Of a DNA stretch of 64,000 nt, positions 8,225 through 25,872 are shown in pieces. The stretch is from assembly GCF_004217045.1 (NCBI RefSeq), contig NZ_SGXM01000002.1, forward strand, positions 372,001 through 436,000. Direction: 5' to 3'. Position 1 is the first letter of the stretch. Each line of letters starts with the position of its first letter. Origin of the DNA: Cupriavidus agavae. GTDB lineage: Bacteria > Pseudomonadota > Gammaproteobacteria > Burkholderiales > Burkholderiaceae. A model generated the notes under the pieces. That model worked only from the letters and a program-made list of their open reading frames with translations. It was not told the origin of the DNA and did no database searches. A program made the translations under genes and the position numbers.

Positions 8225-8423
8225 TGAGACTTCCCTGATGCTTGTTTCTGATTGACCCGTAGTGCCGCGCGTCTTCGGCCACGGGTCCGGCATCTCAGCC
8301 GCCCGGTGGTCCTGCCACGCTGGCAAGGCTCGTCTTACGGGCGCACATCATGAACGTCTTAGATGACAGGAAAGTGATGGCGGCGCAGATATCCGCACCG
8401 CCATCGTCACGGCAAGTCCGCGC

Positions 8424-10245: not shown

Positions 10246-11076
10246 CTATCTGCCGTTCTTCTGGTTGTCGATGATCGGCCGCAGCAGCGTGAAATCGTTG
10301 GGGTAGAACGGCGGCACCGCCTGGGGATCTTTCTGGCGCGCGATCTCCACGAACCTGCGGTCGGCCTCGATGGCCAGCATGACGTCGAAACGCTTGACCC
10401 CGGCCGCCTTGGCGCGCTGCAGCTCGCGCTCGCTCTTGGCCCGGTAGGCTATCGTGCGCATCAGCAGGTCGTAGAGCAACCGGGGGCGGCGTTCCAGGGA
10501 CGCAACGGTTTCCTCGCGGCGCTTGTCCAGCACCGACTGCCAGAGCGCCGAGCCTTCGAGCCCGGGCGTGAGCTCGGCAATCGCCACCAGTTGCTCCTTC
10601 TTGGCCGAAGGCAGGTACTGCACGCCCTCGGCGTCGAGAAAGGCGCGAATCTCGCCGCTGCGCTGCCCGAGCAGCTCCTCGGCGCGCGTCTTGGGCTTGC
10701 GTGGCTTGTCGATATCGGTCCAGGTCGAGGGGAACGCGCCCAGCTCCGCAAAGATGCGGGCCCAGTCGTCATACTCGGTCCAGGTCCACGCGCGGCCCTT
10801 GAAATAGCGGGCGTAAACCTGCTCGAAGTAGCCGGCCAGGTTCAGCCCGTCGGAGCCGCTGCTTTTCACGAGCGCCAGGATTTCGTCGGCCTCGGCGTCC
10901 GAAATACCCTCCACGGTCGCCATCACCCGCCCGAATACGCGATCGTACGAGCCCGCCGTGTCCTGGAAATCCCGCGTACGGGTCTCCGCACCCGCAACCG
11001 GCTCGGCTGCGGGCCTGGACTTCGGAACGGAAGCAGGCTTGACCCGCTTCCTGCGGAAAAAACGAAAAACTTCCAC
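10246..11076 (-). CDS. Protein of unknown function, 276 aa
   Basis: Not recognised. I chose the GTG at 11074-11076 because GAGAGAGG lies 5 nt upstream; ATGs at about 11130 and 11112 in the same frame lack this. The N-terminus is strongly basic (VEVFRFFRRKRVKPA), then a Pro/Ala-rich linker to about residue 30. The remainder is soluble, charged and mainly helical (EADEILALVKSSG, KRREETVASLERRPRLLYDLL), with Trp/Tyr-rich patches (YFKGRAWTWTEYDDW). There is no signal peptide or membrane segment. The stop is followed at once by nine T residues on the coding strand, with no stem before them. It lies between ybaL and the Bug gene on the same strand but about 100-140 bp from each. Confidence 0.7.
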   Translation of the reverse strand: MEVFRFFRRKRVKPASVPKSRPAAEPVAGAETRTRDFQDTAGSYDRVFGRVMATVEGISDAEADEILALVKSSGSDGLNLAGYFEQVYARYFKGRAWTWTEYDDWARIFAELGAFPSTWTDIDKPRKPKTRAEELLGQRSGEIRAFLDAEGVQYLPSAKKEQLVAIAELTPGLEGSALWQSVLDKRREETVASLERRPRLLYDLLMRTIAYRAKSERELQRAKAAGVKRFDVMLAIEADRRFVEIARQKDPQAVPPFYPNDFTLLRPIIDNQKNGR

Positions 11077-11217
11077 GAACGCCTCTCTCGATCGCCCTGG
11101 GCAGGGCTCCATCGCCAGGGTGGCGCTCATTCTCGCACATTGGCGCGGGCGCAAGGATGGATCAGCGACCGGGCGGGCGGAATGCGCCCCCCCTTTCACC
11201 GCCAGCCCCGCCTCTGC

Positions 11218-12216
11218 TCAGTCCAGCGTAATGCCCTCCCGCTGGATCACGGCGCCCCAGCTGGCTTCCTCCTGTTCCACCCGCTTGGCGAAGCGGGCCG
11301 GGTCGATCATCACCACCTCGCCCTGCTGGCCCAGTGCGGCGCGGGCCTTGTCGTCGTCGACGATGCCCTGGGTGGCGGCGTGGAGCTTCTGCACGATCTG
11401 CGGCGGGGTGCCGGCCGGCGCCAGCAGGCCAATCCAGAACGTCGAGTCGAACGGCTTGTAGCCCGCTTCCTCCACGGTGGGCACGTCGGGCAGCTGGGCC
11501 ATGCGCTTCGTGCCGCTGACCGCAATGGGCTTGAGCTTGCCGGCCTTGATCTGCGGCAGCGCGCTCCAGGTGTCGAAGGCGGTGTCGAGTTCGCCGCTGA
11601 TCACCGCCATCTGCGCCTGCGCGGCCGACTTGTAGGGGATATGCGTGGTCTGGATCTTCGCGCGGTTGTTGAGCATGGCAAAACTCAGGTGCGCGATGTT
11701 GCCCGGCCCGGCCGAGCCGTAGCTGACCTTGCCCGGCTGCTGCGACGCATAGCGCGACAGCTCCTGCACCGTATTCACGGCGTGCTTCTGCGACCAGTCC
11801 GGATTCGTGACGAGGATGAACGGTGCTTCCAGGATCAGCGTGACCGGCGCGAAATCGCGCGGCTTGTAACCGCCTTTCTTGTAGACCTGCGGATTGATCG
11901 TGACACTGCTCGAATTGGTCACCATTACCGTGTAGCCATCCGGCGCCGCGCGGGCCACTTCGGTCGCACCGATCAGGCCGTTGGCGCCGGCCTTGTTCTC
12001 CACCACCACGGGCTGGCCGAGCGATTTCGTCAGCCGCTCCGATACCACACGCGCGACGGTGTCCGTGAACGACCCCGCCGGGAACGGCACGATCATGCGG
12101 ATCGGCTTGCCGGGCCATCCCCCGTTCTGCGCCATGGCCGGCGCAGCCATCGTGCCCGCCAGCGCCAGCAGCGACGCCACGACCATTCCCTTGCCTGCCT
12201 TCGTTGCCTTGCTCAT
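11218..12216 (-). CDS. Bug-family periplasmic solute-binding protein (TctC-like)
   Basis: 332 aa with a cleavable signal (residues 1 to about 29, ending PAMAQNGG). Family motifs are WPGKPIRMIVPFPAGSFTDTVAR, VVENKAGANGLIGATEVARAAPDGYT and GAGPGNIAHL-like YGSAGPGNIAHLS. Bug proteins bind carboxylates (dicarboxylates, aromatic acids, amino acids) and often serve tripartite transporters or sensors. It is the last gene of the carboxylase/CoA-transferase operon (50 bp after the double CaiB gene), so it probably captures the acid this pathway consumes. No TctAB genes lie next to it; a TctBA pair is 21 kb away. Confidence 0.88.
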   Translation of the reverse strand: MSKATKAGKGMVVASLLALAGTMAAPAMAQNGGWPGKPIRMIVPFPAGSFTDTVARVVSERLTKSLGQPVVVENKAGANGLIGATEVARAAPDGYTVMVTNSSSVTINPQVYKKGGYKPRDFAPVTLILEAPFILVTNPDWSQKHAVNTVQELSRYASQQPGKVSYGSAGPGNIAHLSFAMLNNRAKIQTTHIPYKSAAQAQMAVISGELDTAFDTWSALPQIKAGKLKPIAVSGTKRMAQLPDVPTVEEAGYKPFDSTFWIGLLAPAGTPPQIVQKLHAATQGIVDDDKARAALGQQGEVVMIDPARFAKRVEQEEASWGAVIQREGITLD

Positions 12217-12266
12217 GTTTCGTCTCCTTCGTTGTTATTGGCGAATTGCTGATGGCGAAGCGCGCG

Positions 12267-14735
12267 TCAGCCCGCGTTGCGAGCGCTTCCCGAGGTCTTG
12301 CGCCGCGCCACCTGGCCCGTGATGTCCTGCGATGCGAGTTCGGCAAGCCGCTGCCCGCCCAGCCCGAGCACGCGGGCCAGCACCTCGTCGGTATGCTGGC
12401 CGAGCGTCGGCGCCGGACATCGCACCGGCATTGCCTCGGCTGTCTCCCGGAACCAGGCCGTGCTGGCGGTGTAGGCGCCGCCGTGCGCCCGTTCGAGCAC
12501 GCGCCAGAAGCCACGCGCGGCCAGATGCGGGTCTTCCAGCACCTGCCACATCGGGCGCACCACGCCTGCCGCCACGCCGGCGGCCTGCAGCCGACACATC
12601 GCCTCATCGGCGTCCAGCGTCGCGCACCATTCGTCGATCACCGCGCCGATCCGGCGCTCATGCGCCCTCCTGCCGGTGGCGTTTGCGAGACCGGCGTCCG
12701 CCGCGAGGTCACCACGCGCCAGCGCGCGGCACAGGCCGGGCCAGGTGTCGTCCGTCACGTCGACCACCACCCACGCGTCGTCTCCGGCGCAGCGGAAGCA
12801 GCCATGCGGAGTGTTGACCGGATGGCGGTTGCCATGGCGTGCCGGCACGCCGCCCGACGCCGACTGCGAGACGATGAACGGAGCGGCCATCGACAGCATG
12901 GCCTCGACCTGCGACAAATTGACGTGGCGGCCCTTGCCCGTGGCTTGCTGGTCGAACAGCGCCAGCAGGATGGCCGCGCCCGCATTGAGGCCGCCAACCG
13001 GATCACCATAGGCATACGAGGTCATGGCCGGCGGCCCGTCCGGATGCCCGGTATAGAGCGGCAGGCCGCTGGCCTGTTCGAGCGTGCCGCCATAGGCGCG
13101 CGTGTTGCTCCAGGCATTGCCGAGGCCGAATGCCGGCATCGATACCATCACAAGCCGTTCATTGCGCGCCCGCAGCGCGGCGTAGTCGAGGCCGAGCTTC
13201 GGCAAGACCTCGGCGGAGTAGTTCTCGATCACCGCATCGGCCTGCGCCACCAGGTCGAGCAGCAGCGCCTTGCCTTCGGGCCGCGTCAGGTCCAGCGTGA
13301 TGCCGCGCTTGTTGCGGTTCATCAGGTTGAAGTTGGTGTTCTTCTCGTACAGCCGTTCGCGGTAGAACTGTTCCGTGAAATGCGCGCCACGCCACCAGTC
13401 CGGGTAGCCCGTGCTCTCCACCTTGATGACTTCGGCACCAAAATCCGCCAGCGTGCGCGACGCCAGCGGCCCCGCCCAGCCCATCGTCAGGTCGATCACG
13501 CGAACACCTTCGAGCGGCAGCTTGCCGGCCCGCGCCCGCCGCAACGCCGGCTGCGGCGCGCGGTCGAGCCCCGCGCCGCGATAGAACGCGTCGTGCTGGC
13601 CCAGCATCGGCGCCGTACCGCCGGCCAGCGGCCCGGCCGCATCGAGCCGCAGCGGCACCACCGGCCCTTCGAAGCGGCTCCCGTCGACTTCCACCGGCAC
13701 GAAGGCCCCGCGCTCGCGATGCACGGCCTGCTGCAGCAGCTCCTCCATGGTCGGCACCAGCACCGCGGGATGTTTCAGGTCGCCGAGCAACCGGAACCAC
13801 TCGGCGGCGGTGCGTGTCAGGAAGGCCGGCTTCAGCAGCGCATCGATCTCGTCCGCGCGGGCCATGCGCTCGGGACCGTTCACATAGCCCGGATCATCGG
13901 CCAGATCGGGTCGCCCGATCGCCTGGCAAAGCGCCTGCCATTGCGGCAGCGTGTGCGTGAAGATGCCGATCCACCCTTGCGCGGTCTCGTAGATGCCGGC
14001 CGGATGCGTGCCGCAGAAGCGGTTCACGCCCAGGCGGCGCAGCGGATGGCGCTTGTCCTGCACCATGCCGGCCTCCATCTCCACCACGCTGAACACCGCC
14101 TCATGGGCGCTCAGCACGTAGCGGCGGCTACCGTCCCGGCGGCCCAGCAACGCGGCGACGGCCGCCGAGAAACTCGTCAGGCCGAGGACGATCGCACTCT
14201 GCAGGTCGTGCGGCATATGCGGCGGCCCGTCAACGGGACCGCTGCCGTGCACGGCGCCGGCCAGCGCGCGGCACACCGCCTCGGAACCGGCGTAGTGGCG
14301 GTATGGGCCGGTCTCGCCGAACCAGGTCAGCACGATCTCGATCGGCGCATGATGCGGGGCGGCCTCTCCGGCGGGCTGCCACACCGGCGCGTCGAGCACG
14401 GCCAACCCGGCATCGAGCGCCCGGGCATCGAGCACGACATCGCAGGTCTGGGCGAGCTGCGTCAACCATGCTTCGTCGGTGCGCGCGGTGACGCTGCGCT
14501 TGTTCGTATTGAGCCAGGCAAACAGCGCGCTGTCCTGCCGCGCCGATCCGGCCCGCGGCACCAGCGGCGGCATGCCGCGCCACGCGTCGCCATCCGGGCT
14601 TTCCACCTTGATGACCTCCGCGCCGAAATCCGCGAACAGCTTGCCGGCGTAGGCCAGCGCCGGGCCGGTGCCGATTTCCAGCACCCGCAATCCGGCGAGC
14701 GCGAGTCCGTCCAGGTCGGGAAGGTTGGGTGTCAT
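12267..14735 (-). CDS. Tandem-fused CaiB/BaiF (class III) CoA-transferase-like protein
   Basis: 822 aa, about twice a single CaiB/BaiF unit. The N-half (residues 1 to about 400) starts GLRVLEIGTGPALAYAGKLFADFGAEVIKVESPDGDAWRG. The C-half (about 405-822) starts GVRVIDLTMGWAGPLASRTLADFGAEVIKVESTGYPDWWRG. Both are clearly homologous, which indicates duplication and fusion. In the segment that reads GQxVDxSxxDA in canonical members, the first half has RRYVLSAHEA (about 204-213) and the second GRHVNLSQVEA (about 602-612), so neither keeps an Asp. The start ATG (14733-14735) has GGGAGGA nearby. It lies 14 bp after the carboxylase gene. The role would be to activate an organic acid to its CoA ester, or a related step. 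Confidence 0.85.
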   Translation of the reverse strand: MTPNLPDLDGLALAGLRVLEIGTGPALAYAGKLFADFGAEVIKVESPDGDAWRGMPPLVPRAGSARQDSALFAWLNTNKRSVTARTDEAWLTQLAQTCDVVLDARALDAGLAVLDAPVWQPAGEAAPHHAPIEIVLTWFGETGPYRHYAGSEAVCRALAGAVHGSGPVDGPPHMPHDLQSAIVLGLTSFSAAVAALLGRRDGSRRYVLSAHEAVFSVVEMEAGMVQDKRHPLRRLGVNRFCGTHPAGIYETAQGWIGIFTHTLPQWQALCQAIGRPDLADDPGYVNGPERMARADEIDALLKPAFLTRTAAEWFRLLGDLKHPAVLVPTMEELLQQAVHRERGAFVPVEVDGSRFEGPVVPLRLDAAGPLAGGTAPMLGQHDAFYRGAGLDRAPQPALRRARAGKLPLEGVRVIDLTMGWAGPLASRTLADFGAEVIKVESTGYPDWWRGAHFTEQFYRERLYEKNTNFNLMNRNKRGITLDLTRPEGKALLLDLVAQADAVIENYSAEVLPKLGLDYAALRARNERLVMVSMPAFGLGNAWSNTRAYGGTLEQASGLPLYTGHPDGPPAMTSYAYGDPVGGLNAGAAILLALFDQQATGKGRHVNLSQVEAMLSMAAPFIVSQSASGGVPARHGNRHPVNTPHGCFRCAGDDAWVVVDVTDDTWPGLCRALARGDLAADAGLANATGRRAHERRIGAVIDEWCATLDADEAMCRLQAAGVAAGVVRPMWQVLEDPHLAARGFWRVLERAHGGAYTASTAWFRETAEAMPVRCPAPTLGQHTDEVLARVLGLGGQRLAELASQDITGQVARRKTSGSARNAG

Positions 14736-14749
14736 GGCGTCCTCCCGGC

Positions 14750-17700
14750 CTACCAGGCGTCTACGAAGCCGCGGCGTGGCCGATCCCCGCGCAGCGCCGC
14801 CGAAGCGATGCCCTGCACGAGCCACTTGCGCGTCTGGGCCGGATCGATGACCGCGTCGATCTCCACGGCGGCTGCCGTGTTGATCGCGTGGCCGCGCTCG
14901 TACGACTGCGCCACCAGGCGGTCGAACAGGGCCTTGCGCTCGGGGCCGTCCGGCACCGCCTCCAGCTCCTTCTTGAACCCGAGCCGTACCGCGCCCTCCA
15001 GCCCCATCGGGCCAAATTCGCCCGTCGGCCACGACACCGTGAAGCTTGCCGAACGGAAGCCGCCGCCAGCCATCGCCATGGCGCCAAGCCCATAGCCCTT
15101 GCGCAGGGTCACTGCCAGCAGGGCCACGCGCAGCTTGGCCGCCGTCAGGAACATGCGCGAGACATGCCGCACCTGCGCGCGAGCCTCCACCTCCGGGCCG
15201 ACCATGAACCCCGGCGTATCGATCAGCGACACGATCGGCAGCCCGTGCGCGTCGCAGAGTTGCATGAAGCGCGACGCCTTGTCGGCTGCGTCGGCGTCGA
15301 TGGCGCCACCCAGGTGGTACGGGTTGTTGGCGATGATGCCCACCGGCTGGCCTTCCACGCGCGCCAGCGCCGTGTGGATACCGGCGCCGAAGCCGCCGCG
15401 CAGCAGCAGCACGCTGCCCACATCGGCAATGCCCTCGATGGCCTTGCGCGTGTCGTAGACCCGCAGCCGGTTCTCCGGCACCACATGGCGCAGGTCGATC
15501 GGGTCGGGCGCGCTCCACTGCGCCACGCGCCCCTGGAACATCGACAGGTAGTGCCGTGCCACGCGCACGCCCTCGGCTTCGTCCTCCACGAGCACGTCGA
15601 TCACGCCATTGGCGTACTGCACCGCTGCCGGCCCCACGTCTTCGGGGCGGTACACGCCCAGGCCGCCGCCTTCGATCATGGCCGGTCCCGCCATGCCGAT
15701 ATTGGTCGACTTGTCGGCAATGATCACGTCGCAGCAGCCCAGGAACGCGGCGTTGCCGGCAAAGCAGCGTCCCGACACGATGCCGACCACCGGCACGTTG
15801 CCGCTCAGTTCGGCGAACGCGGCGAACGAGGGTTGATACAGGCCCGACACCGAGGGGTAGTCCACATCGCCGGGCCGGCCGCCGCCGCCTTCGGCGAACA
15901 GCACCAGCGGCAATTCGTCGCGCAGCGCCACTTCCACGATGCGGTCGGTCTTGATGTGGTTGCGCTTGCCTTGTGTGCCGGCCATTACCGTGGCGTCGTA
16001 GGCCATCACCGCGCTGCGCGCGTGTTCGCGGCCGACCAGTTCGCCGTTGACGTTGCCGATGCCTGTGATCAATCCGTCAGCGGGCGTGTTCTCCACGAGG
16101 TCCTGGTGCGCGCGGCGCGATGCCTGCGCGGCCAGCGCCAGCCCGCCATACTCGACGAAGCTGTCCGCATCGCAAAGGTCGGCCACGTTCTCGCGCGCCG
16201 TGCGCTGCCCGCGCGAGCGGCGGCGCGCCACGGCCTGCGGCCGCTGGGCATCCTCAAGGTAGGCATGGCGGTCGAGCACGCGCTGCAGGTCGGCACGGAT
16301 CGCCTGCCGGTCCACCTTGCGTGTGGCATCCACGGACACGCCGTCGCCCTCGGCCTGCTCGATCACGATCAGGATCTGGTTCTCCGACGCCATGGCGCCT
16401 TTGTCGAGCCGGAGATCCACCACGCGGCCGCTGCACGCGGCGGCAATCGCGTGCTCCATCTTCATCGCGTCGAGCACGGCGACGGTCTGGCCGGGCCTGA
16501 CCACGTCGTTCAGTTGCACGGCGATGTCCACCACACGGCCGGTCAGCGGAGCGCGGACGGCTACCAGCCCTTCGTCAACCGTCTCCTCGGGATGCGCGGG
16601 TTGCGGTGTCGTGGCATGGGGCCGCGCGGCGCCGTTGAACAGCGCCTGCTGGGCGCGGTCGGCGTCGGCAAGCGCCGCCGCGGCGGCAGTCAGCTCGGGC
16701 AGGATGGCTTCGAAGTGCCGCGTATGAACGTCCTGCGTCAGGAAGTCGTCGCGCTGCACCAGTGCGCGCAGCAGGTCGAGATTGGTCGGTACGCCGGCAA
16801 TGCGGAACTCGGCCAGGCTGCGCTGCAACCGGCGAACGGCGGCGTCGAAACGCGGCGCGGTGCTACGCACGATCAGCTTGGCCAGCAGCGTATCGAAGTT
16901 CGGCGACGGCGCGTAGCCGGCATAGCCGTGAGAATCCACGCGCACGTCCGGCCCCGACGGCACATCGAAGCGCTCCAGCCGGCCGTGTGCCGGGCGCGCC
17001 AGCCCCTGTGCGTCGGTCGTCTCCGCATTGATCCGCGCCTGGATGGCAAAGCCGCGCGGTTGCGGCGGCGCGGCGGGGTCCAGCCCGGCATCGGCGAGCG
17101 TGCCGCCGGCGGCCACGCTCAATTGCAACGCCACGAGATCGACGCCGGTGACCTGCTCGGTGATCGTATGTTCGACCTGCAGGCGCGGATTGGCCTCGAT
17201 GAACACGAACCCCTTCTGCTCGCCCGCCTCGGTCTCTTCCACCAGGAACTCGAAGGTGCCCAGGCTGCGGTAGTTGACGCGCCGGGCCAGCCGCAGCGCG
17301 GCGCGGAGAATTGCCTCGCGCAGCGCCGGCTGCAGCACAGGGCTCGGCGCGATCTCGACGAGCTTCTGGAAGCGCCGCTGCAACGTGCAGTCGCGCTCGC
17401 CCAGCGCAATGACGTGCGTGCCGTCGCCGGCAATCTGCACCTCGATATGGCGGGCCCGCACGACCAGCCGCTCGGCGTACAGCGCGTCGATACCGAAGGC
17501 GGAAGCCGCCTCCGAGCGGCACCGTGCATACGCTTCGGCCAGTTCCTCGCGGCGCCGTACCACACGCATGCCGCGCCCGCCGCCGCCGCCCACGGCCTTG
17601 ATGACCACGCCCGCCCCGCCTTGGGCATCGAAGAACCCGGTGATCTCTTCGAGCGACGCATTGCCGCGCGTGGCGGGCATCACCGGCACGTCGCTCTGCG

Positions 17701-18064
17701 CGGCCAGTTCCAGCGCGCGGCCCTTGTCGCCGAACAGGGCCAGGTGTTCGATGTCGGGGCCGACGAAGCCGATGCCAGCGGCCAGGCAGGCTTCGGCGAA
17801 ATCGGCCCGCTCGCTCAGGAAGCCGTAGCCGGGATGCACCGCGTCACAGCCCGTGGCCTTGCCGGCGGCGACGATCGCGGCGATATCAATATAGGCAGCG
17901 GGGCCGGCGGCTTCCAGCGCCACCGCCTCGTCAGCCAGCACCCGGTGCAGCGCGCTGGCGTCGTCCTGCGAATACACGGCCACCGTGCCGATACCGAGAT
18001 CGCGCGCCGCGCGAATCACGCGCAATGCAATCTCGCCCCGATTGGCGATCAAGAGCTTTTTCAA
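14750..18064 (-). CDS. Single-chain acyl-CoA carboxylase: biotin carboxylase + biotin carrier + carboxyltransferase
   Basis: 1104 aa. Order: biotin carboxylase (1 to about 455; KKLLIANRGEIALRV, glycine-rich ATP-binding KAVGGGGGRGMRVV, FIEANPRLQVEHTITE), biotin carrier (about 500-570; VLDAMKMEHAI, biotinyl-Lys near 535), then a full carboxyltransferase (about 590-1104; GLITGIGNVNGELVG, IDTPGFMVGPEVE). This layout matches single-polypeptide long-chain acyl-CoA carboxylases (LCC type) rather than separate PccA/PccB. The reaction is ATP- and bicarbonate-dependent carboxylation of an acyl-CoA. The best start is TTG at 18062-18064, where the family sequence begins (xKKLLIANRGE), with GAGGAG 9 nt upstream; no ATG fits. 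It follows another carboxyltransferase gene by 47 bp. Confidence 0.9.
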   Translation of the reverse strand: MKKLLIANRGEIALRVIRAARDLGIGTVAVYSQDDASALHRVLADEAVALEAAGPAAYIDIAAIVAAGKATGCDAVHPGYGFLSERADFAEACLAAGIGFVGPDIEHLALFGDKGRALELAAQSDVPVMPATRGNASLEEITGFFDAQGGAGVVIKAVGGGGGRGMRVVRRREELAEAYARCRSEAASAFGIDALYAERLVVRARHIEVQIAGDGTHVIALGERDCTLQRRFQKLVEIAPSPVLQPALREAILRAALRLARRVNYRSLGTFEFLVEETEAGEQKGFVFIEANPRLQVEHTITEQVTGVDLVALQLSVAAGGTLADAGLDPAAPPQPRGFAIQARINAETTDAQGLARPAHGRLERFDVPSGPDVRVDSHGYAGYAPSPNFDTLLAKLIVRSTAPRFDAAVRRLQRSLAEFRIAGVPTNLDLLRALVQRDDFLTQDVHTRHFEAILPELTAAAAALADADRAQQALFNGAARPHATTPQPAHPEETVDEGLVAVRAPLTGRVVDIAVQLNDVVRPGQTVAVLDAMKMEHAIAAACSGRVVDLRLDKGAMASENQILIVIEQAEGDGVSVDATRKVDRQAIRADLQRVLDRHAYLEDAQRPQAVARRRSRGQRTARENVADLCDADSFVEYGGLALAAQASRRAHQDLVENTPADGLITGIGNVNGELVGREHARSAVMAYDATVMAGTQGKRNHIKTDRIVEVALRDELPLVLFAEGGGGRPGDVDYPSVSGLYQPSFAAFAELSGNVPVVGIVSGRCFAGNAAFLGCCDVIIADKSTNIGMAGPAMIEGGGLGVYRPEDVGPAAVQYANGVIDVLVEDEAEGVRVARHYLSMFQGRVAQWSAPDPIDLRHVVPENRLRVYDTRKAIEGIADVGSVLLLRGGFGAGIHTALARVEGQPVGIIANNPYHLGGAIDADAADKASRFMQLCDAHGLPIVSLIDTPGFMVGPEVEARAQVRHVSRMFLTAAKLRVALLAVTLRKGYGLGAMAMAGGGFRSASFTVSWPTGEFGPMGLEGAVRLGFKKELEAVPDGPERKALFDRLVAQSYERGHAINTAAAVEIDAVIDPAQTRKWLVQGIASAALRGDRPRRGFVDAW

Positions 18065-18111
18065 TTCCGTGGTCTCCTCGTTGTCATTGTGTTGGTCTCG
18101 CCGGGGCGCGG

Positions 18112-19662
18112 TCAGGGCCGGATGCCGAAGCGGGTCGGTCCGGCCTCGCGTAACGGCGCCGCCAGGTTGGCGAACTCGCACAGCAGCGCGCGGGTGTCGC
18201 GCGGGTCGATGATGTCTTCGATGACGAACGCTTCCGCGCTGCGGAATGGCGAGGTCAGGCTGCGCACGCGCTGTTCGATTTCGGCACGTTTCTGCACAGG
18301 GTCATCCGCGCCTTCGATCTCGGCCTTGTAAGCCACGTCGAGCCCGCCCTCGATGGGCAGCGCGCCCCAGTTGGCGGACGGCCACGCGTAGCGGAAGTTG
18401 AAGCGCCCCATGTGCTGGTGGCCGGCCGCTGCCACCCCGTAGGCGCGGCGCAGCAGGAGCGAACACCACGGCACCGTGGTCTGGTAGACGGCAGCCAGCG
18501 CGCGCACGCCCTGACGCATCACGCCGGCCGCCTCGGCTTCGATGCCCACCTGCAGCCCCAGCGTGTCGACCAGATTGACGACCGGCAGGTGGAACGTCTG
18601 CGCGAGATCGACGAAGCGCGTGAATTTGTCGGCGCTGGCGTTGTCCCAACTGCCACCGTGGCACGACGGGTCGCTGGCAATCACGGCCACCGGCCAGCCA
18701 TCGAGCCGTGCCAGCCCCGTCACCACCGCGCCGCCCCATTGCCGGCCTGTCTCGAAGAACGAGTCCCGATCGACCAGTGCTTCGAGGATCGGGCGAATGG
18801 CATAGTCGGCGCGTGGGTCGCGCGGGATGGCCGCGAGCAGCCACTCGTCACGCCGCGCGGGATCGTCGGTGGGCGCAAGGCGCGACGGCAGGTCATGCAC
18901 CGACGCCGGCAGGTACGACAGGAAGCGCCGTGCCCGCGCAAACGCTTCCTGCTCCGTGGGTACCTCGTCATCGACCACGCCATTGCGCGTGTGTACCTGG
19001 CTGCCACCGAGCTCGTGCTTGGTCACGGTCTGCCCCACGCGCGCCACGACCGACAGCGGCCCCTCGTTGAACAGTTGCGAGGTCTCCCTGACCATCACGG
19101 AGTAGTGGCTGGCCGCCACCCGCGCGGCGCCCATGCCGGCCACCGAGCCCAGCGCCAGCGACACCACCGGCACCGCCGCCATGTTCTCGACCACGTGCTG
19201 CCAGACGCGCATCGTCGGAATCAGCGTATGGCCCTTGATCTCGATATTGCGCACCGACCCGCCGCCGCCCGTGCCGTCGACCAGCCGGATCATCGGCAGG
19301 CGCAGTTCGCGCGCCATTTTCTCGGCGTGCACGAGCTTGTCGCCCACCGCGCCATCGTTGGCACCGCCCCGTACCGTGAAATCATCCCCGACCAGCACCA
19401 CGGGCCTGCCGTCGATGCTGGCGCGGCCCATGACGAGATTCGACGGAATCAGGTCCACCAGCCGCCCGTTGCTGTCATAGCGGCCGCTGCCGCTGAGCCC
19501 GCCCACTTCGCGGAATGACGCCGCGTCGGCAAGCTGCCCGATACGCTCTCGCACCGTGAGTTTGCCGGCCGCCCGATGGCGTTCGACCTTGTCTTCGCCA
19601 CCCATGCGCGCGGCCAGGCGCCTGCGGTACGCCAGTTCATCGACTTCAGGCTGCCAACTCAT
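18112..19662 (-). CDS. Acyl-CoA carboxylase carboxyltransferase subunit (PccB/MccB-like)
   Basis: 516 aa from the ATG at 19660-19662, a normal length for a complete carboxyltransferase. Visible landmarks: KLTVRERIGQLADAASFREVGGLSG near the N-terminus, a glycine-rich GMGAARVAASHYSVMVRETSQLFNEGP block, and VVNLVDTLGLQVGIEAEAAGVMRQG in the C-terminal half. It transfers carboxylate from carboxybiotin to an acyl-CoA. It is the first gene of the operon and is preceded by a -24/-12 promoter. It is odd that the next gene already carries its own carboxyltransferase. The two may act on successive substrates, or this one may share the biotin carboxylase of its neighbour. Confidence 0.88.
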   Translation of the reverse strand: MSWQPEVDELAYRRRLAARMGGEDKVERHRAAGKLTVRERIGQLADAASFREVGGLSGSGRYDSNGRLVDLIPSNLVMGRASIDGRPVVLVGDDFTVRGGANDGAVGDKLVHAEKMARELRLPMIRLVDGTGGGGSVRNIEIKGHTLIPTMRVWQHVVENMAAVPVVSLALGSVAGMGAARVAASHYSVMVRETSQLFNEGPLSVVARVGQTVTKHELGGSQVHTRNGVVDDEVPTEQEAFARARRFLSYLPASVHDLPSRLAPTDDPARRDEWLLAAIPRDPRADYAIRPILEALVDRDSFFETGRQWGGAVVTGLARLDGWPVAVIASDPSCHGGSWDNASADKFTRFVDLAQTFHLPVVNLVDTLGLQVGIEAEAAGVMRQGVRALAAVYQTTVPWCSLLLRRAYGVAAAGHQHMGRFNFRYAWPSANWGALPIEGGLDVAYKAEIEGADDPVQKRAEIEQRVRSLTSPFRSAEAFVIEDIIDPRDTRALLCEFANLAAPLREAGPTRFGIRP

Positions 19663-19704
19663 GTGTCTCTCTTTCGTCGCGTCAGATGGTTTGCGACATG
19701 TACC

Positions 19705-19719
19705 GCACGAGTCATGCCA
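19705..19719 (-). promoter_or_regulatory. Sigma-54 (-24/-12) promoter of the carboxylase operon
   Basis: On the minus strand the sequence reads TGGCATG-ACTC-GTGC. GG and GC are separated by exactly 10 nt, and 9 of 11 conserved positions match TGGCACG-N4-TTGC. The predicted start of transcription is near 19694, giving a leader of about 32 nt before the ATG at 19662. A sigma-54 activator gene lies directly divergent. Confidence 0.82.
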
Positions 19720-19769
19720 GGCGCTCCTGCCATTGATTCGATTGAGAAATCGATGGGGCGCCGCTAAGA

Positions 19770-19786
19770 TGTCCTCCATAACGACA
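19770..19786. promoter_or_regulatory. Activator-site candidate 1 (TGTC-N9-GACA)
   Basis: The 17-bp sequence TGTCCTCCATAACGACA has inverted ends TGTC/GACA. It lies about 76-92 bp upstream of the predicted sigma-54 transcription start, a normal distance for an enhancer site. A second copy with the same first seven bases and the same spacing follows. Confidence 0.65.
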
Positions 19787-19792
19787 TATAGA

Positions 19793-19809
19793 TGTCCTCA
19801 CCGGGGACA
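19793..19809. promoter_or_regulatory. Activator-site candidate 2 (TGTC-N9-GACA)
   Basis: The 17-bp sequence TGTCCTCACCGGGGACA has the same TGTCCTC start and GACA end as site 1, offset by 23 bp (about two helical turns). It ends 14 bp before the GTG start of the divergent activator gene, so it could also control that gene. Confidence 0.65.
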
Positions 19810-19817
19810 CGCAAGGA

Positions 19818-19828
19818 GACACGGTGTC
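19818..19828. promoter_or_regulatory. GACAC-G-GTGTC palindrome over the activator start codon
   Basis: A perfect 5-bp inverted repeat using the same GACA/TGTC elements as the two upstream sites. It overlaps the GTG start at 19824 and could mediate autorepression. It may also be chance, being short. Confidence 0.35.
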
Positions 19829-21539
19829 CTCAGTGACAACACCACCGACGGCGCTGGGCGTGCTGGTTTTTGGCGCGCCCGGTGCCCCGCCCGCCAGCTT
19901 CGGCATCTGTTCCGACCCAGCCGTTGCCGCTGCGGCGGATGCCGCCTGGCAGCACGCAGCCAGAACCGATCCCGCCCGCGCACTGTTCCCCGTGGCGGCC
20001 GGCGGCCAGCACTATCTCGGGCTCGGCTTCGAGGACGACGCGTGCCGGCTCCTCGTGCTGCACCGCGCCGGGGCCGAGACCGTGCTGCTCGATTTCCTGC
20101 GTAGCGTGCCGTTCGCGGGCGCCATCCTCGACTATTTCCTCAACGGCCCGTATCAGGCCGTGACCGTGGTGGACCGCAATGGACAGGTGCGCTTCCTGAG
20201 CCCCGTCCACGAGAAATTCCTCGGGCTGGAGGCGGGCGCCGGTATCGGCCGCCCTGCCGCCGAGGTCATTCCCAACTCGCGCCTGCCGCACGTGGTGGCG
20301 ACGGGCAAGGCCGAGATCGGGCAGTTGCAGCAGTTCAACGGTGCGACGCGCGTGGTGAACCGCATCCCGATCCGCGAGCACGGCGAGGTAGTGGGCGCCA
20401 TCGGCCAGGTCATGTTCAAGGGGCCCGAGGCGCTGGTGCGCATGCACGAGGAACTCTCGGCGCTGCGCTCGGAGGTGGCCCGCTACCAGCGGGAGTTCAG
20501 CGGCCTGCGCGGCGAGCCGCCCGCGCTGGGCCTGATCGGCGAGAGCGCCCCGATGCAGCGGCTGCGGCGCGAGATCCAGACCGTGGCGCGGCTCGACGTG
20601 CCGGTGCTGATCCTCGGAGAGAGCGGCACGGGCAAGGAACTGGTGGCGCGGGCGATCCATGCCGCCGGCAGCGACGCCGGTGACGCGGCACGTCCGCTGG
20701 TCAGCCTCAACCTTGCGGCGCTGCCCGCCACGCTGATCGAATCGGAGCTGTTCGGCTACGCACCCGGGGCGTTCACGGGCAGCCAGCGGCAGGGGCAGGC
20801 AGGCAAGCTCGAACAGGCGGCGGGCGGCACCGTCTTTCTCGACGAAGTGGCCGATATCCCGATGGAAATGCAGGTCAAGCTGCTGCGCGTGCTGGAAGAC
20901 CACATGGTCGAACGGCTCGGCAGCCGCCGCGCCCAGCGTGTGGAGTTCCGGCTTGTGTCCGCCACCAATCGCGATATCTCCGAACTGATCGACGCCGGGC
21001 GCTTCCGGCTCGATCTCTACTACCGGCTCAGCGGCGTGGTGCTGCGCATTCCCGCGCTGCGGCAGCGGCGCGAGGACATCCCCGCGCTATTGCAGCATTT
21101 CGTCGAGGCGTTCTGCGCACGCAATCGCATGCCGCCGCCCCGCATCGAGCACGATGTGGCGCGCCATCTCGCCGGCCAGCCGTGGCCGGGCAATGTGCGC
21201 CAGTTGCGCCAACGCGTGGAGGAAGCCCTGGTGTTCTGCGACGGCCAGATCCTGCGCGTGGCCGACTTCGCCCGGGGCGAGGCGGCGCGCCGGCTGCCCA
21301 CCTCGGAGATCGACAATGCCGTGAGCCCGGCACCGGACGCCGCGGCGCAACCGGCACCCGCCCCGGCGTCGGCCGCGCCGGCGGCCCACGCCCCCGACGC
21401 CGGCATGCGCGAGCTGGCCCATGCGGCCGTGCTCGACGCCATCGCCCGTCACGACGGCAACAAGAAGCGCGCCGCCGCGCAGTTGCGGATCTCGCGCTCG
21501 CATCTGTACAAGATCCTCGCACGCGGCCCGAACGGCTGA
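19824..21539 (+). CDS. Sigma-54-dependent transcriptional activator with PAS domain
   Basis: 571 aa. Order: an N-terminal sensory region (1 to about 95), a PAS-like domain (about 98-200; [28 protein letters not shown]), an AAA+ sigma-54 domain (about 235-460; Walker A GESGTGKE at 265-272, Walker [13 protein letters not shown]), an Ala/Pro-rich linker, and a Fis-type HTH at the C-terminus ([20 protein letters not shown]). The sigma-54-contacting loop reads GAFTGS (315-320) instead of GAFTGA. The GTG start has AAGGAG 5 nt upstream. It is divergent from the carboxylase operon and is its obvious activator, probably responding to the acid or acyl-CoA substrate (inference). Confidence 0.92.
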
Positions 21540-21645
21540 CCGCTGGCGCGGCCGCCCGCGCGCATTGGTGCCCTCACGGCAACACCATGTCCAGGCGCGG
21601 GTGTCTTCCGCCCGGCCACCGCGGCAGCTAGCCTTCTTCACAACG

Positions 21646-21671
21646 CCGTCATGGGGCTTTCGCCATGACGG
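21646..21671. promoter_or_regulatory. Perfect inverted repeat upstream of the efflux operon
   Basis: Arms CCGTCATGG / CCATGACGG (9 bp) flank an 8-nt loop. It ends 22 bp before the first efflux gene and about 107 bp after the sigma-54 activator gene. It could be a repressor operator for the efflux genes or the terminator of the upstream gene; no T-run follows. Confidence 0.5.
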
Positions 21672-21693
21672 ACACGGTAGTGGAGAGGCAGCA

Positions 21694-23184
21694 ATGAAGG
21701 ATTCCCCCAGCAAGCGGGCCGGAGCGCTCGCGCAACGCGTCGCGTGGTCGGTGCCGGCCCTGCTGTTGTCAGCCTGTGCCAGCATGGGCGGGCTCGCAAC
21801 CCGCGCCACGCTCGACGATGCCGACGCGCTGGCCGCGTCAGCCAGCCTGCGCCACGTGCCCGCCACGCCAGCCGCCTGGCCGGCGCGTGCCTGGTGGCGC
21901 GACTTCGGCGATCCCCAGCTCGACACGCTCGTGGACACCGCGCTGGCCAACCAGCCAACGTTGGGCGTGGCGGCGGCGCGTGTGCGCCAGGCGCAGGCGC
22001 TGACCAGCCAGGCCGAAGCGCGGCTGTTCCCGCAGGCCAGCCTCAATGCGCGCACCACGCGCCAGCGCTTCAGCGAGAACGGTGCCGTCCCTCCGCCGCT
22101 GGCCGGCAGCTGGAAGTGGAACAGCGACGTGGTGATCGGCCTTGGCTACGAACTCGACTTCTGGGGCCGCAACCGCGCCACGTTCGAAGCGGCACTGGAC
22201 CGCGCCCGCGCCGCCGAAGTGGAGTACCAGGCGGCCGAACTGATGCTCACCACGTCCGTGGTACGTACCTACCTGAAGCTCGATGCGGCGCACGCGCTGC
22301 GCGCGCTGGCCACCGAGACCTATCGCCAGCGGCAGGACACGCTGGCGCTGATCCAGCACCGCGTGGCGGCCCAGCTCGACTCGCGCCTCGACATGAAGCA
22401 GGCCGAGGCAGCGCTGCCCGTGACCCGCGAACGGATCGCGGCCATTGACGAAGTGATTGCCCTGACGCAGAACCAGCTTGCCGCACTGGCCGGGAAAGGC
22501 CCCGATGCCGGCCGCGACATCGCACCGCCACGGCTGCAGCGTCACTTCTCCGCTGCCGTGCCGACCGACGTGCCGGCCGAACTGATTGGCCGGCGTCCTG
22601 ATGTGGTGGCGCAGCGCTGGCGCGTGGAAGCCGCCGCGCAGGATATCAAGGCGGCTCGCGCGCAGTTCTATCCCAACATCAGCCTCACGGCATTCGCGGG
22701 CCTGCAGAGCCTGAGCCTGTCGGATCTCTTCACGGCGGGCAGCCGGACGCTGGGCATCGGGCCGGCGCTCTCGCTGCCGGTCTTCGACGGCGGCCGACTA
22801 CGCGCCAACCTTGGCGTGCGGCATGCGGAGTACGACGCCGCCGTGGAGCAGTACAACGCCACGCTGGTCACGGCGCTGCACGACGTGGTCAACCAGCTGG
22901 TGGCGCTGGGCTGGCTGGAGACGCGCACCGGCGAGCAACGACTGTCGCTGCAGTTGACCCAGGAGGCGTACGACCTTGCGCTGTCGCGCTACCGGCACGG
23001 TGTCGGCAACTATCTGCAGGTTCTGTCCGCCGAAGGACAGGTGCTGCAGCAGAAGCAGTTGCTGATCGACCTCGACACGCAGGCCCATGCGCTGCATCTC
23101 GAACTGGTGCGCGCGCTGGGCGGCGGTTACGGGGAAACCACGAATACCGGCGGCGCGCGCCTCACCCAAAGGAATCCTTCATGA
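21694..23184 (+). CDS. NodT-type outer-membrane efflux lipoprotein
   Basis: 496 aa from the ATG at 21694 (GGAGAGG 5 nt upstream). A lipoprotein signal ends LLLSACASM (lipobox Cys at about 29). Two OEP repeats follow. Family marks are WWRDFGDPQLDTLVDTALANQPTL, YELDFWGRNRATFEAA, AAELIGRRPDVVAQRWRVEAA-like PAELIGRRPDVVAQRW, and ARAQFYPNISLTAF. It forms the outer-membrane channel of a tripartite drug or toxic-compound exporter. The stop overlaps the ATG of the adaptor gene (ATGA), so the three genes form one operon. Confidence 0.92.
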   Translation: MKDSPSKRAGALAQRVAWSVPALLLSACASMGGLATRATLDDADALAASASLRHVPATPAAWPARAWWRDFGDPQLDTLVDTALANQPTLGVAAARVRQAQALTSQAEARLFPQASLNARTTRQRFSENGAVPPPLAGSWKWNSDVVIGLGYELDFWGRNRATFEAALDRARAAEVEYQAAELMLTTSVVRTYLKLDAAHALRALATETYRQRQDTLALIQHRVAAQLDSRLDMKQAEAALPVTRERIAAIDEVIALTQNQLAALAGKGPDAGRDIAPPRLQRHFSAAVPTDVPAELIGRRPDVVAQRWRVEAAAQDIKAARAQFYPNISLTAFAGLQSLSLSDLFTAGSRTLGIGPALSLPVFDGGRLRANLGVRHAEYDAAVEQYNATLVTALHDVVNQLVALGWLETRTGEQRLSLQLTQEAYDLALSRYRHGVGNYLQVLSAEGQVLQQKQLLIDLDTQAHALHLELVRALGGGYGETTNTGGARLTQRNPS

Positions 23185-24356
23185 ACGCCCCCACCGAGAA
23201 CAGGCCGGCCATCGCGGCAGCCGTGCCCGCGCCGCCCCGCCGGCGACCGCTACGCATCGCCCTCGCCGTATCACTGGGCACCCTCGCGGTGGCTGGCGCG
23301 GCCGTCTACTGGTGGCAGCACGGACGGCACTGGGTATCGACCGAGGACGCCTACGTCGAGGGCAACGTGGTGCAGGTCACGCCGCAGGTCAGTGGCGTGG
23401 TGACGGCCATTCTTGCGGACAACACCGACCTCGTCGCCGCCGGCGAGCTGCTCGTGGAATTCAATGGCGTCGACGCGCAGGTGGCGGAAGCCGCCGCGCA
23501 GGCGCAACTGGCGCGCACCGTGCGGCTGGTTCGCGGCCAGTTTGCCGCAGCACGGCAGGACCGGGCTACCGTGGAACTGCGCAGTGTCGACCTGGCGCGC
23601 GCCCGGGAAGACATGGCGCGGCGTTCGGCGCTGGTGACCAATGGCGCCATCTCGGGCGAGGAACTGGTGCATGCGCGGCATGCCATCCGCAGCGCGCAGG
23701 CCTCGCTGGCCGTGGCCAACGAGCAGTTGAGGCGCAACCAGGCGGTAGTCGAGCGTACCTCGGTGGCCTCGCATCCCGATGTGCTGGCCGCCGCCTCGCA
23801 ATTGCGGCACGCCAGCGTGGCCCTCACGCGCACGCGGATCGCCGCGCCGGTTGGCGGGGTGGTGACGAAGCGCTCGGTACAGGTGGGCCAGCGCGTCGGT
23901 GCCGGGGTGCCGATGATGTCGGTGGTGCCGCTCGAACAGCTCTGGGTCACCGCCAACCTCAAGGAATCGCAGTTGCGCGACATTCGCGTGGGGCAGCCGG
24001 TCAGGCTGACGACCGACCTCTACGGCAACAGCGTGGTCTTCAACGGCCGTGTGCTGGGCCAGGACGCCGGCACCGGCAGCGCCTTCGCACTGCTGCCCGC
24101 GCAGAACGCCACCGGCAACTGGATCAAGGTGGTGCAGCGCGTGCCGGTACGCATTGCGCTCGATCCCGCCGAGGTCGCCGCCCATCCGCTGCAGATCGGG
24201 CTGTCGATGAAGGCGTCGGTTGACACACGCTCGCGCGATGGCAAGCGTCTGGTCGCCATCAACGATGCCGCGCAGCAGTACCGCACCACGGTCTTTGCCG
24301 ACGAACTGGCCCGCGCCGACGCGCTGGTGGAGCGTATCGTCCAGGAGAACCTGTAA
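23181..24356 (+). CDS. emrA: EmrA/HlyD-type membrane-fusion protein
   Basis: 391 aa. One N-terminal membrane anchor (about 24-44; LRIALAVSLGTLAVAGAAVYWW), then the lipoyl-like half STEDAYVEGNVVQVTPQVSGVVTAI, a helical hairpin (about 95-215), and the second half VALTRTRIAAPVGGVVTKRSVQVGQRV. This is the standard EmrA layout. It links the inner-membrane MFS pump to the outer-membrane channel encoded upstream. It overlaps the upstream gene by 4 bp and is followed after 4 bp by the pump gene. Confidence 0.9.
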   Translation: MNAPTENRPAIAAAVPAPPRRRPLRIALAVSLGTLAVAGAAVYWWQHGRHWVSTEDAYVEGNVVQVTPQVSGVVTAILADNTDLVAAGELLVEFNGVDAQVAEAAAQAQLARTVRLVRGQFAAARQDRATVELRSVDLARAREDMARRSALVTNGAISGEELVHARHAIRSAQASLAVANEQLRRNQAVVERTSVASHPDVLAAASQLRHASVALTRTRIAAPVGGVVTKRSVQVGQRVGAGVPMMSVVPLEQLWVTANLKESQLRDIRVGQPVRLTTDLYGNSVVFNGRVLGQDAGTGSAFALLPAQNATGNWIKVVQRVPVRIALDPAEVAAHPLQIGLSMKASVDTRSRDGKRLVAINDAAQQYRTTVFADELARADALVERIVQENL

Positions 24357-24360
24357 CGCC

Positions 24361-25872
24361 ATGCCCAACCCTTTGCTTCTGCTCCTGATCGGCGCACTGA
24401 CGGCGATCGATTTCATCCAGAACGGCATGGTGTCCTTTGCCGCCGGCCCGATCATGGGCGAGATCGGCGCCAGTCCCGAGGAGTTCAGCCTCATCGCCGC
24501 CGCCTACGCCAGCATTGCCATCGTCGGCATCGCACTGCAGCGCTGGTGCGTGGAACGGCTGGGCTGGCGCGGCTATGTGCGCGGTGCGCTGGGCATCGCC
24601 GCGGTGGGGGCGATGGCGTGCGGCACCGCGTGGAGCTACGAGACGCTGCTGGCCGGTCGCATGGTCATGGCGGTTGGCTGCGCGGGCATGATGACGTCGG
24701 CGCGCCTGGCGGTAAACCTGATACCACCGGGGCCGGGCCGCATCCACGGCATCACGGCGCTGGCGTCGGGCGTCTGCTGCGGACTGGCCTCGGCGCCATG
24801 GCTGGCGGCCACCATCGTGTCGGCGGACCGCTGGCCGATGATCTTCTGGCTGACCGCCGCCGCCGTGCTGGCGATGCTGGCGGCCACGCACGTGCTGCCG
24901 GCCGACAAGGTCCCGGCCGGGCAACGCTCCGGCGCCCATCCGCTGCGGCTGGTGGCGCTGGCCGCTGGCAGCTTCCTGCTGCTCTACGTGCTGCAACGCT
25001 CCTACTACGATTTCTACGCCAACCGGCTCGGACTAGTGCTCGGCGCCCTGGCCGGCGTGGCGGCACTGGGCGGCTTCATCTGGGCCGAGACCCGCAGCGC
25101 CCGCCCCCTGCTGAAGCTGGGCAGCCTGGTGGAACCGCGCTATCTGGCCGGACTCGCACTGTTCACGTTCTGCTACATGACGCTGGGGTCGAATGGTTAC
25201 CTGCTGCCGCTGGTCATGCAACGCTCGCTGGGATACTCGTGGAGCACCACCGGCAACCTGTTCGCGCTGGGGCTGGCGGGCGGCGTGCTGACGTGGGTGG
25301 CCATGTCGCGGATGCTGCCGCGCTGGCCCGGGCCCCGCAAGTACTTCATGACGGGCTTCGCCGCGCTTGCCGCGTCGGCATGGCTGCTGAGCCGCCTGCC
25401 ACCCGCGCCCGATCCCTGGCTGCACGTGCTGCCCGCGCTGGGGCTGTATGGCGTTTTCATCATGACCATGATGCCCACCACGGCAATGCACACGTTCATG
25501 GCGCTCGGACGCGACGAATCCGTCTTCTCGCATGCCCAGCAGACCAAGAACATGATGGGCGAAGTGGGCAAGGCGCTCGGGGTCATGCTGGCCACGGTGG
25601 GCCAGCAATGGCTCACGGTCTGGCACTACACCCGGCTGCAGGGCGAGATCCATCCCGGCAACCCGCACTTCCAGGAGGTTCACGCGCGCATCACCGCGGT
25701 GCTCTCGGCCTCGATGGACCCGGCCCGCGCGGCCGACGCCGCCCTGGCGCAGATCGCGCAGATGCTGACGCAGCAGTCGGTGCTGCTCGCCAACCTCGAC
25801 CACTTCCGGGGACTCGCCATGGTGGCCGTGCTGGCCATCGCGGTCAGCGCGGTGCAGAAGGCGCTGCGCTAG
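24361..25872 (+). CDS. EmrB-like MFS efflux pump (DHA2 type)
   Basis: 503 aa from the ATG at 24361, with about 14 hydrophobic segments. Diverged DHA2 features are visible (SLIAAAYASIAIVGIALQRW, MVMAVGCAGMMTSARLAVNLI), and the C-terminal tail QTKNMMGEVGKALGVMLATVGQQW is EmrB-like. Conservation to classic EmrB is weaker than for the adaptor. It is the proton-driven inner-membrane component of the tripartite exporter. The stop lies 17 bp from the end of a convergent LysR gene. Confidence 0.85.
   Translation: MPNPLLLLLIGALTAIDFIQNGMVSFAAGPIMGEIGASPEEFSLIAAAYASIAIVGIALQRWCVERLGWRGYVRGALGIAAVGAMACGTAWSYETLLAGRMVMAVGCAGMMTSARLAVNLIPPGPGRIHGITALASGVCCGLASAPWLAATIVSADRWPMIFWLTAAAVLAMLAATHVLPADKVPAGQRSGAHPLRLVALAAGSFLLLYVLQRSYYDFYANRLGLVLGALAGVAALGGFIWAETRSARPLLKLGSLVEPRYLAGLALFTFCYMTLGSNGYLLPLVMQRSLGYSWSTTGNLFALGLAGGVLTWVAMSRMLPRWPGPRKYFMTGFAALAASAWLLSRLPPAPDPWLHVLPALGLYGVFIMTMMPTTAMHTFMALGRDESVFSHAQQTKNMMGEVGKALGVMLATVGQQWLTVWHYTRLQGEIHPGNPHFQEVHARITAVLSASMDPARAADAALAQIAQMLTQQSVLLANLDHFRGLAMVAVLAIAVSAVQKALR

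Follow-up and report, generated by a model that had tools for sequence, protein, structure and literature searches.

The window analysed here, a 64 kb stretch (64,000 nucleotides) of Cupriavidus agavae contig NZ_SGXM01000002.1, carries a five-gene locus that probably forms an inducible module assimilating an organic acid by way of its coenzyme A (CoA) ester and carboxylation. The locus is a real, conserved assembly of known kinds of enzyme. Its operon is a hybrid, in which a single-chain long-chain acyl-CoA carboxylase (LCC) and a double CaiB/BaiF CoA-transferase (CaiB2) occupy the slots of an acyl-CoA synthetase and of a separate biotin carboxylase (BC) and biotin carboxyl carrier protein (BCCP), an arrangement that is new here and that gives the operon two carboxyltransferases (CTs). 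No description of the operon was found in the open-licence literature searched on LCC or on the operon itself. The genes are:

19824 to 21539, plus strand: S54, a PAS-type sigma-54-dependent activator of 571 residues (Sigma54_activat, GAFTGS in the AAA+ domain, Fis helix-turn-helix; two-part N-terminal sensor)
18112 to 19662, minus strand: standalone carboxyltransferase of 516 residues (PF01039; its own clade, CTb, in the tree), called CT below
14750 to 18064, minus strand: LCC-family single-chain BC-BCCP-CT acyl-CoA carboxylase with a TTG start and a DAMKMEH biotin site (Pfam, PDB alignment, sequence)
12267 to 14735, minus strand: CaiB2, a double CaiB/BaiF family III CoA-transferase (two PF02515 stretches)
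11218 to 12216, minus strand: Bug/TctC periplasmic solute-binding protein (PF03401, above cut-off)

All five genes were verified by Pfam and sequence, so the four closely spaced co-directional genes opposite a sigma-54 activator are as described in the first-pass annotation. The gaps between CT, LCC, CaiB2 and Bug measure 47, 14 and 50 bp, and 161 bp separate S54 from CT. The range of 14-50 bp given earlier holds because LCC starts at the TTG at 18064; this codon is preceded by GAGGAG, and for 9 of 13 relatives a TTG at the equivalent place was chosen as start by the small codon-usage script that supplied the gene calls for the loci, for which reason gene absences in the compared loci are soft. 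A search of other genomes, as the annotation had proposed, recovered the order regulator, CT-LCC-CaiB2-Bug in 8 Cupriavidus/Ralstonia loci and in two same-genus genomes (L185, L186), a recurrence that argues against a chance arrangement.

The best evidence for a passage from acid to acyl-CoA to carboxylation is that the type of acid-activating enzyme varies among relatives and its position after LCC does not. The survey comprised the best 80 of at least 563 confirmed LCC relatives. In all 21 with at least 65% LCC identity an activating enzyme is encoded directly downstream on the same strand, CaiB2 in 16 and an AMP-ligase in 5, never both. At 75% identity and above (n = 10) CaiB2 directly follows LCC in every locus, with Bug and S54 present in 10 of 10 and CT in 8 of 10; between 65 and 75% (n = 11) the gene directly after LCC is CaiB2 in six and AMP-ligase in five, and no locus has both. 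An activating enzyme stands beside LCC in two of the three loci at 57-65% identity. CT is missing from two Pseudorhodoferax loci, where a 4HBT thioesterase gene takes its place (Pfam on one), and loci of C. metallidurans, Advenella, Bordetella and Achromobacter have LCC-CaiB2-Bug without CT or this S54. CT is therefore optional. CaiB2 and LCC also neighbour each other further off, in L181 (with a dipeptide-type ABC importer), in Haematobacter L064 (divergently) and in five Acidimicrobiia loci, where CaiB2 is 27-28% identical and lies on the strand opposite to LCC.

In the proposed mechanism, the PAS-containing S54 would act through upstream palindromes to induce transcription at a -24/-12 promoter, and Bug would bind a carboxylate outside the cell. 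CaiB2 would move CoA from a donor thioester onto the acid, an activity that its residues support, with the C-terminal half doing the chemistry and the N-terminal half in a structural role, the division of labour to be expected if two subunits have become fused. LCC, judged by its family, would then add CO2 at the expense of ATP, probably at the alpha carbon. The standalone CT would act as a second carboxyltransferase; its close relatives are encoded together with separate BC and BCCP, and within the window operon LCC alone, by its BC-BCCP portion, would offer it a biotin partner. The product would be finished by enzymes encoded elsewhere, presumably in the catabolic direction. Capture, CoA activation, carboxylation and sigma-54 control, as the first-pass annotation had them, are supported, above all by the 21 of 21 activating enzymes and the conserved promoter; the LCC family, the presence of two complete CTs, the separate clade of the standalone one and the optional nature of CT had been overlooked.

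By sequence, the window fusion is a member of the known LCC family. Pfam places Biotin_carb_N, CPSase_L_D2, Biotin_carb_C, Biotin_lipoyl and Carboxyl_trans in this order, and BC, BCCP and CT lie in one chain of about 1100 residues that resembles the long-chain acyl-CoA carboxylase 4RCN over its full length (residues 5-1086, 1082 bits; same domain order). The N-domain CT motifs are common to both in the aligned part examined, as is the type of biotin domain, the biotinylation lysine of the window enzyme sitting in a DAMKMEH-type motif. Unlike 4RCN, the window enzyme is encoded under sigma-54 control next to an acid CoA-transferase, and its operon has a further CT. LCCs are homohexamers of broad chain-length range with a preference for long chains. 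For LCCs of mycobacteria and Pseudomonas, one paper (PMC6491548) gives acyl-CoAs of C2-C16 as substrates, proposes service in carbon and nitrogen metabolism, and puts BC-BCCP at the C-terminal end. Unlike that placement, the 4RCN alignment has BC first, as in the window LCC. Two LCC-like fusions occur in tandem in Marinobacter segnicrescens (L094), separated by a gene with weak resemblance to AMP-ligases (26% label).

Both PF02515 stretches of CaiB2 score above cut-off, and a catalytic Asp in every CaiB unit was not found. The Asp (Asp578, codon 13002-13004) lies in the C-terminal half, and a Gln occupies the equivalent N-terminal position. In an alignment of 43 rows representing 34 places, the C-half Asp is present in 43 of 43, and the N-half residue is never Asp, being Gln in 42 rows and Arg in the remaining one, which indicates one active site per chain. 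The best PDB match, 9fn0_B ('Subunit of Benzylsuccinate CoA-transferase'), which we take to be BbsF, aligns with the C-half including the Asp. In enzymes of the BbsEF type (succinyl-CoA:benzylsuccinate CoA-transferase, 9FN0) a catalytic unit is paired with a non-catalytic one, the donor is succinyl-CoA and the acceptor a substituted succinate. CaiB2 is like BbsEF in its two family III units, which in CaiB2 have one Asp between them; it is unlike BbsEF in joining them in one chain, and it falls below the cut-off of every NCBIfam model that it matched, so that no substrate is assigned to it. Bug family proteins bind carboxylates, and the PDB relatives of the window Bug include BugD, Bug27 and a terephthalate-binding protein.

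Sigma-54 control of the operon is well supported by the sequence features of both the regulator and the region between S54 and CT. S54 has the Sigma54_activat domain, the GAFTG loop and the Fis helix-turn-helix, and faces a -24/-12 promoter. The Pfam search named no PAS domain in it; the predicted structure of the N-terminal part (mean pLDDT 79.5, pTM 0.55) contains a small alpha/beta domain and a PAS domain, which bears out the earlier label of PAS-type activator. FixL PAS domains, with low TM-scores, were the first matches to the sensor, followed by the CitA PAS domain (5fq1, TMt 0.80); this fold comparison pointed to no ligand class. The intergenic region contains:

19704 to 19719, minus strand: -24/-12 sigma-54 promoter element TGGCATGACTCGTGCG, with a counterpart in each of the 16 orthologous intergenic regions
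19731 to 19746, minus strand: AT-rich stretch between palindromes and promoter, weakly similar to an integration host factor (IHF) site; conserved in the alignment of close relatives
19770 to 19786, no strand: palindrome TGTC-N9-GACA, exact match and kept in relatives, candidate activator site
19793 to 19809, no strand: second such palindrome, exact match and kept in relatives, candidate activator site
19825 to 19841, no strand: third TGTC-N9-GACA-like palindrome with one mismatch, overlapping the 5' end of S54

The best GG-N10-GC element reaches at least 9/12 against the -24/-12 consensus in all 16 regions between S54 and the first gene (the window, 10 close relatives, L158-L160 and two Pseudorhodoferax), as against a mean of 1.1 of 16 (maximum 5) in shuffled regions and 2.2 (maximum 7) at random places; the match in the window alone is not above chance. 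Palindromes with at most one mismatch number 46 in the 16 regions, compared with a mean of 1.7 (maximum 6) over 200 single-base shuffles and 2.4 (maximum 9) at random places. Since the pattern was derived from the window before its occurrences were tallied there and in the relatives, part of this excess reflects shared descent, and neither count is independent because the 16 regions are related. The two copies between S54 and CT are the only exact ones in the 64 kb, and two or more occurred in 15 of 100 whole-window shuffles.

The hybrid nature of the operon emerges from comparison with three genomes of the same taxonomic order, G133, G267 and G237, whose CTs are 76-79% identical to that of the window. 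There S54 faces CT-Bug-ADP-forming acyl-CoA synthetase-BC-BCCP (Pfam on G133, the others by similarity), and two of these genomes also have a gene labelled as a 4HBT thioesterase. These operons are like that of the window in S54 clade, CT, Bug gene, promoter and palindromes, and unlike it in having the synthetase and separate BC and BCCP instead of CaiB2 and LCC. A tree of whole regulators gives a clade of 11 (support 100/99) that unites the S54 of the window, its close relatives, Pseudorhodoferax, the three synthetase operons and plasmid pA82, while ten further relatives with a sensor fall outside it. Matched sensor segments show 42-48% identity when LCC-type and synthetase-type operons are compared and 62-70% among close relatives; none of six other S54 neighbours has a sensor matching that of the window.

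Forty places with CT were compared: 8 LCC-derived loci, 4 places on plasmids, and 28 taken from the 65 non-own matches listed. This set did not include the window itself, the short or duplicate loci L001-L038, L119-L157 and L204-L223, or any CT of at least 700 residues (the Marinobacter CTb fusion). S54 (at least 44% identical) accompanies CT in 13 of the 40, and these are exactly the 13 whose CT is at least 76% identical, whatever the partner: ten have LCC and three have BC and BCCP. CT-LCC pairs are over-represented, since eight of the ten entered via the LCC search. Regulator and CT thus travel together, and CaiB2 with LCC and synthetase with BC and BCCP replace each other. In other words, the regulator and a carboxyltransferase are constant in this operon, and the exchange affects the activating enzyme as well as the biotin part.

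The standalone CT belongs to a clade of 17 rows (support 98/99) apart from the CT part of LCC and from a third group, CTx. Its best PDB matches are PccB-type chains (about 240 bits); the CT tree contained no propionyl-CoA carboxylase (PCC), and the BC part in the window is fused with its own CT. CT and CTx occur together in 6 of the 40 places, namely twice on a Variovorax SRS16 plasmid and once each in C. necator pBB2, G005, G242 and G272. The Variovorax sp. SRS16 and Cupriavidus necator pBB2 operons are like that of the window in combining a CTb-clade CT, a second CT, CaiB, Bug and BC and/or BCCP; they are unlike it in their separate BC and BCCP, single CaiB, other regulators and a second CT of the CTx group. 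In Marinobacter segnicrescens (L094) LCC is accompanied by a second fusion whose CT part falls within the standalone-CT clade, and on a Diaphorobacter plasmid CT-BC-BCCP is accompanied by a thiolase, Bug and a CoA-transferase of two subunits. The idea that CT and CTx have each lost the active-site half that the other retains was considered and rejected: the motifs differ in both halves, with no clean split.

Some CT places have other company. In L162, L164 and L165, CT (62-63% identical) lies in an apparent operon with a short-chain dehydrogenase/reductase (SDR) and a gene of about 713 residues, with a fatty-acid-desaturase-family protein in L162 and L164; no biotin carboxylase was seen in these three operons. 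L228 and L230 each have CT, CTx and a Bug gene, and by Pfam L228 also has a succinyl-CoA-ligase-like subunit and an enolase-superfamily enzyme.

Several observations weigh against the proposed acid-assimilation module or against parts of it. Below 57% LCC identity an activating enzyme lies within three genes of LCC, on either strand, in only 22 of 56 loci (16 ligase, 6 CaiB2), and in each of the six with CaiB2 that gene has the opposite orientation to LCC. CT and S54 are both missing from several LCC-CaiB2-Bug operons, so the core works without them. Neither LCC nor BC/BCCP occurs within six genes of CT in 22 of the 40 places (some at contig ends), and the role of CT therefore need not be biotin-dependent carboxylation; no S54 of the window kind lies near CT in 27 of the 40. 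Regulators beside a different operon of the CaiB-ECH-ligase type are 44-45% similar in the full sensor alignment, as against 39-46% for the synthetase type, so that sensor identity alone is not proof of a shared inducer. The pA82 regulator, inside the S54 clade on a long branch, faces an operon without a carboxylase. That operon (L236, Achromobacter xylosoxidans A8 plasmid pA82) encodes Bug, a thiolase, an OB-fold protein, a member of the acetate-CoA ligase family, MaoC and an acyl-CoA dehydrogenase, and may hint at the class of acid shared with the window S54. Finally, one same-genus relative (L185, genome G158) has an S54 without the PAS domain: at about 14884-15600 the protein keeps roughly its first 95 residues and the AAA+ domain, the frame running across the gap, and could be an inducer-independent form.

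The strongest competing explanation, a possible though lesser one, is that LCC and CT catalyse independent carboxylations of different acyl-CoAs (those of two related acids, or else the substrate and an intermediate further along) and share only their regulation, CT being fed by LCC or by a carrier encoded elsewhere. It would suit two full-length carboxyltransferases of different clades, the several Bug genes of the two-CT Variovorax operons, and the genomes with LCC-CaiB2-Bug and no CT; the window operon, however, lacks a second activating enzyme and a second Bug. PF02786 matches in the genome also show one AccC-like frame and no other extra stand-alone biotin carboxylase; carriers were not searched, and a housekeeping pair is possible. 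We infer from the content of the operon that LCC feeds the standalone CT. A bolder form of this, which we hold to be rather doubtful, is that the standalone CT and the CT part of LCC are both charged by the BC-BCCP of LCC, so that two acyl-CoAs could be carboxylated in turn or transcarboxylation could take place between acyl-CoAs. If LCC does serve two CTs, two-CT carboxylase operons would be a recurrent undescribed class, of which the window has the fusion form and L094 has tandem fusions.

Decarboxylation appears improbable. Here Bug would import a malonate-type dicarboxylate, CaiB2 would swap CoA from product to substrate, and the CTs would remove CO2. Such a scheme agrees with the binding of carboxylates by Bug relatives, with the frequent lack of a biotin carboxylase near CT, and with mmdA (decarboxylase alpha subunit) being the best full-length NCBIfam CT model for both CTs, far below cut-off; that score says little, because mmdA is also the only model matched by the genome's two methylcrotonyl-CoA carboxylase (MCC)-type CTs. 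It leaves unexplained the complete ATP-using biotin carboxylase domain of LCC, and the operon has no membrane decarboxylase subunit. Slightly less probable still is an anabolic module whose alkylmalonyl-CoA products would go into lipids or polyketides, in place of one supporting growth on an acid: the C2 to C16 range given for LCC-type enzymes in PMC6491548 would allow it, but uptake and use are a better fit for an inducible-type promoter together with an acid activator and a protein of the periplasmic binding kind, and no synthase lies within the operon. A variant liu, atu or pcc carboxylase operon is very improbable, as the window operon has biotin-dependent acyl-CoA carboxylase domain families in common with those systems and nothing more, its LCC architecture replacing their split into separate alpha and beta subunits and their dehydrogenase, hydratase and lyase genes being absent.

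Synteny with liu, atu or pcc was rejected as well on the conservation of the four-gene order without these pathway genes, and on MCC-type genes elsewhere in the genome, in line with the earlier judgement that this is not the leucine, geranyl or propionyl system. The genome encodes two MCC-type full-length CTs outside the window operon, and genes for a biotin carboxylase and an acyl-CoA dehydrogenase adjoin one of them. The two CTs score 872-876 bits against 3u9r, the MCC beta subunit of P. aeruginosa, 506-514 against the geranyl-CoA carboxylase beta subunit and 897-909 against 9tps; this last is a PCC beta subunit according to its depositors, and the two CTs are read as MCC type.

Two routes to the substrate were tried and rejected. 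Ligase and CoA-transferase families were uninformative, with CaiB2 below the cut-offs and two of three LCC-linked or LCC-near AMP-ligases reaching the cut-off of an 'acyl-CoA synthetase' model that names no substrate. Regulator relatives offered a lead whose genes are absent here and whose regulators fall outside the window S54 clade. Sensors 38-50% identical in all or part adjoin operons of the order CaiB-ECH-ligase-(ECH)-SDR-dehydrogenase-3HCDH on Achromobacter, Celeribacter, Paraburkholderia, Aminobacter and Burkholderia plasmids and in four further genomes. In L226, the one such operon compared with enzyme families, two genes resemble cyclohexanecarboxylate enzymes and one resembles badI, all below the family cut-offs; such ring-acid-like beta-oxidation genes beside distant regulator relatives are a weak lead. 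Other sensor relatives occur on a C. basilensis plasmid without such an operon and on a Salipiger plasmid by TRAP transporter genes. The conserved combination of LCC, an acid-binding protein, one defined activating enzyme and an inducible-type promoter provides a direct handle on the substrate of LCC: once the inducer of the promoter is identified, a substrate should follow.

The flanking genes are of other kinds. The open reading frame adjoining Bug (10246-11199) has no Pfam or NCBIfam match and is conserved in the same-genus relative L185. An apparently exported CehA/McbA-like metallohydrolase is encoded at 6557-8326 on the minus strand, its NCBIfam domain match lying below cut-off. Just downstream of S54, positions 21421-25872 hold an apparent efflux operon, read by eye from the translations as an outer-membrane-factor-like protein, an HlyD/EmrA-like protein and a member of the major facilitator superfamily.

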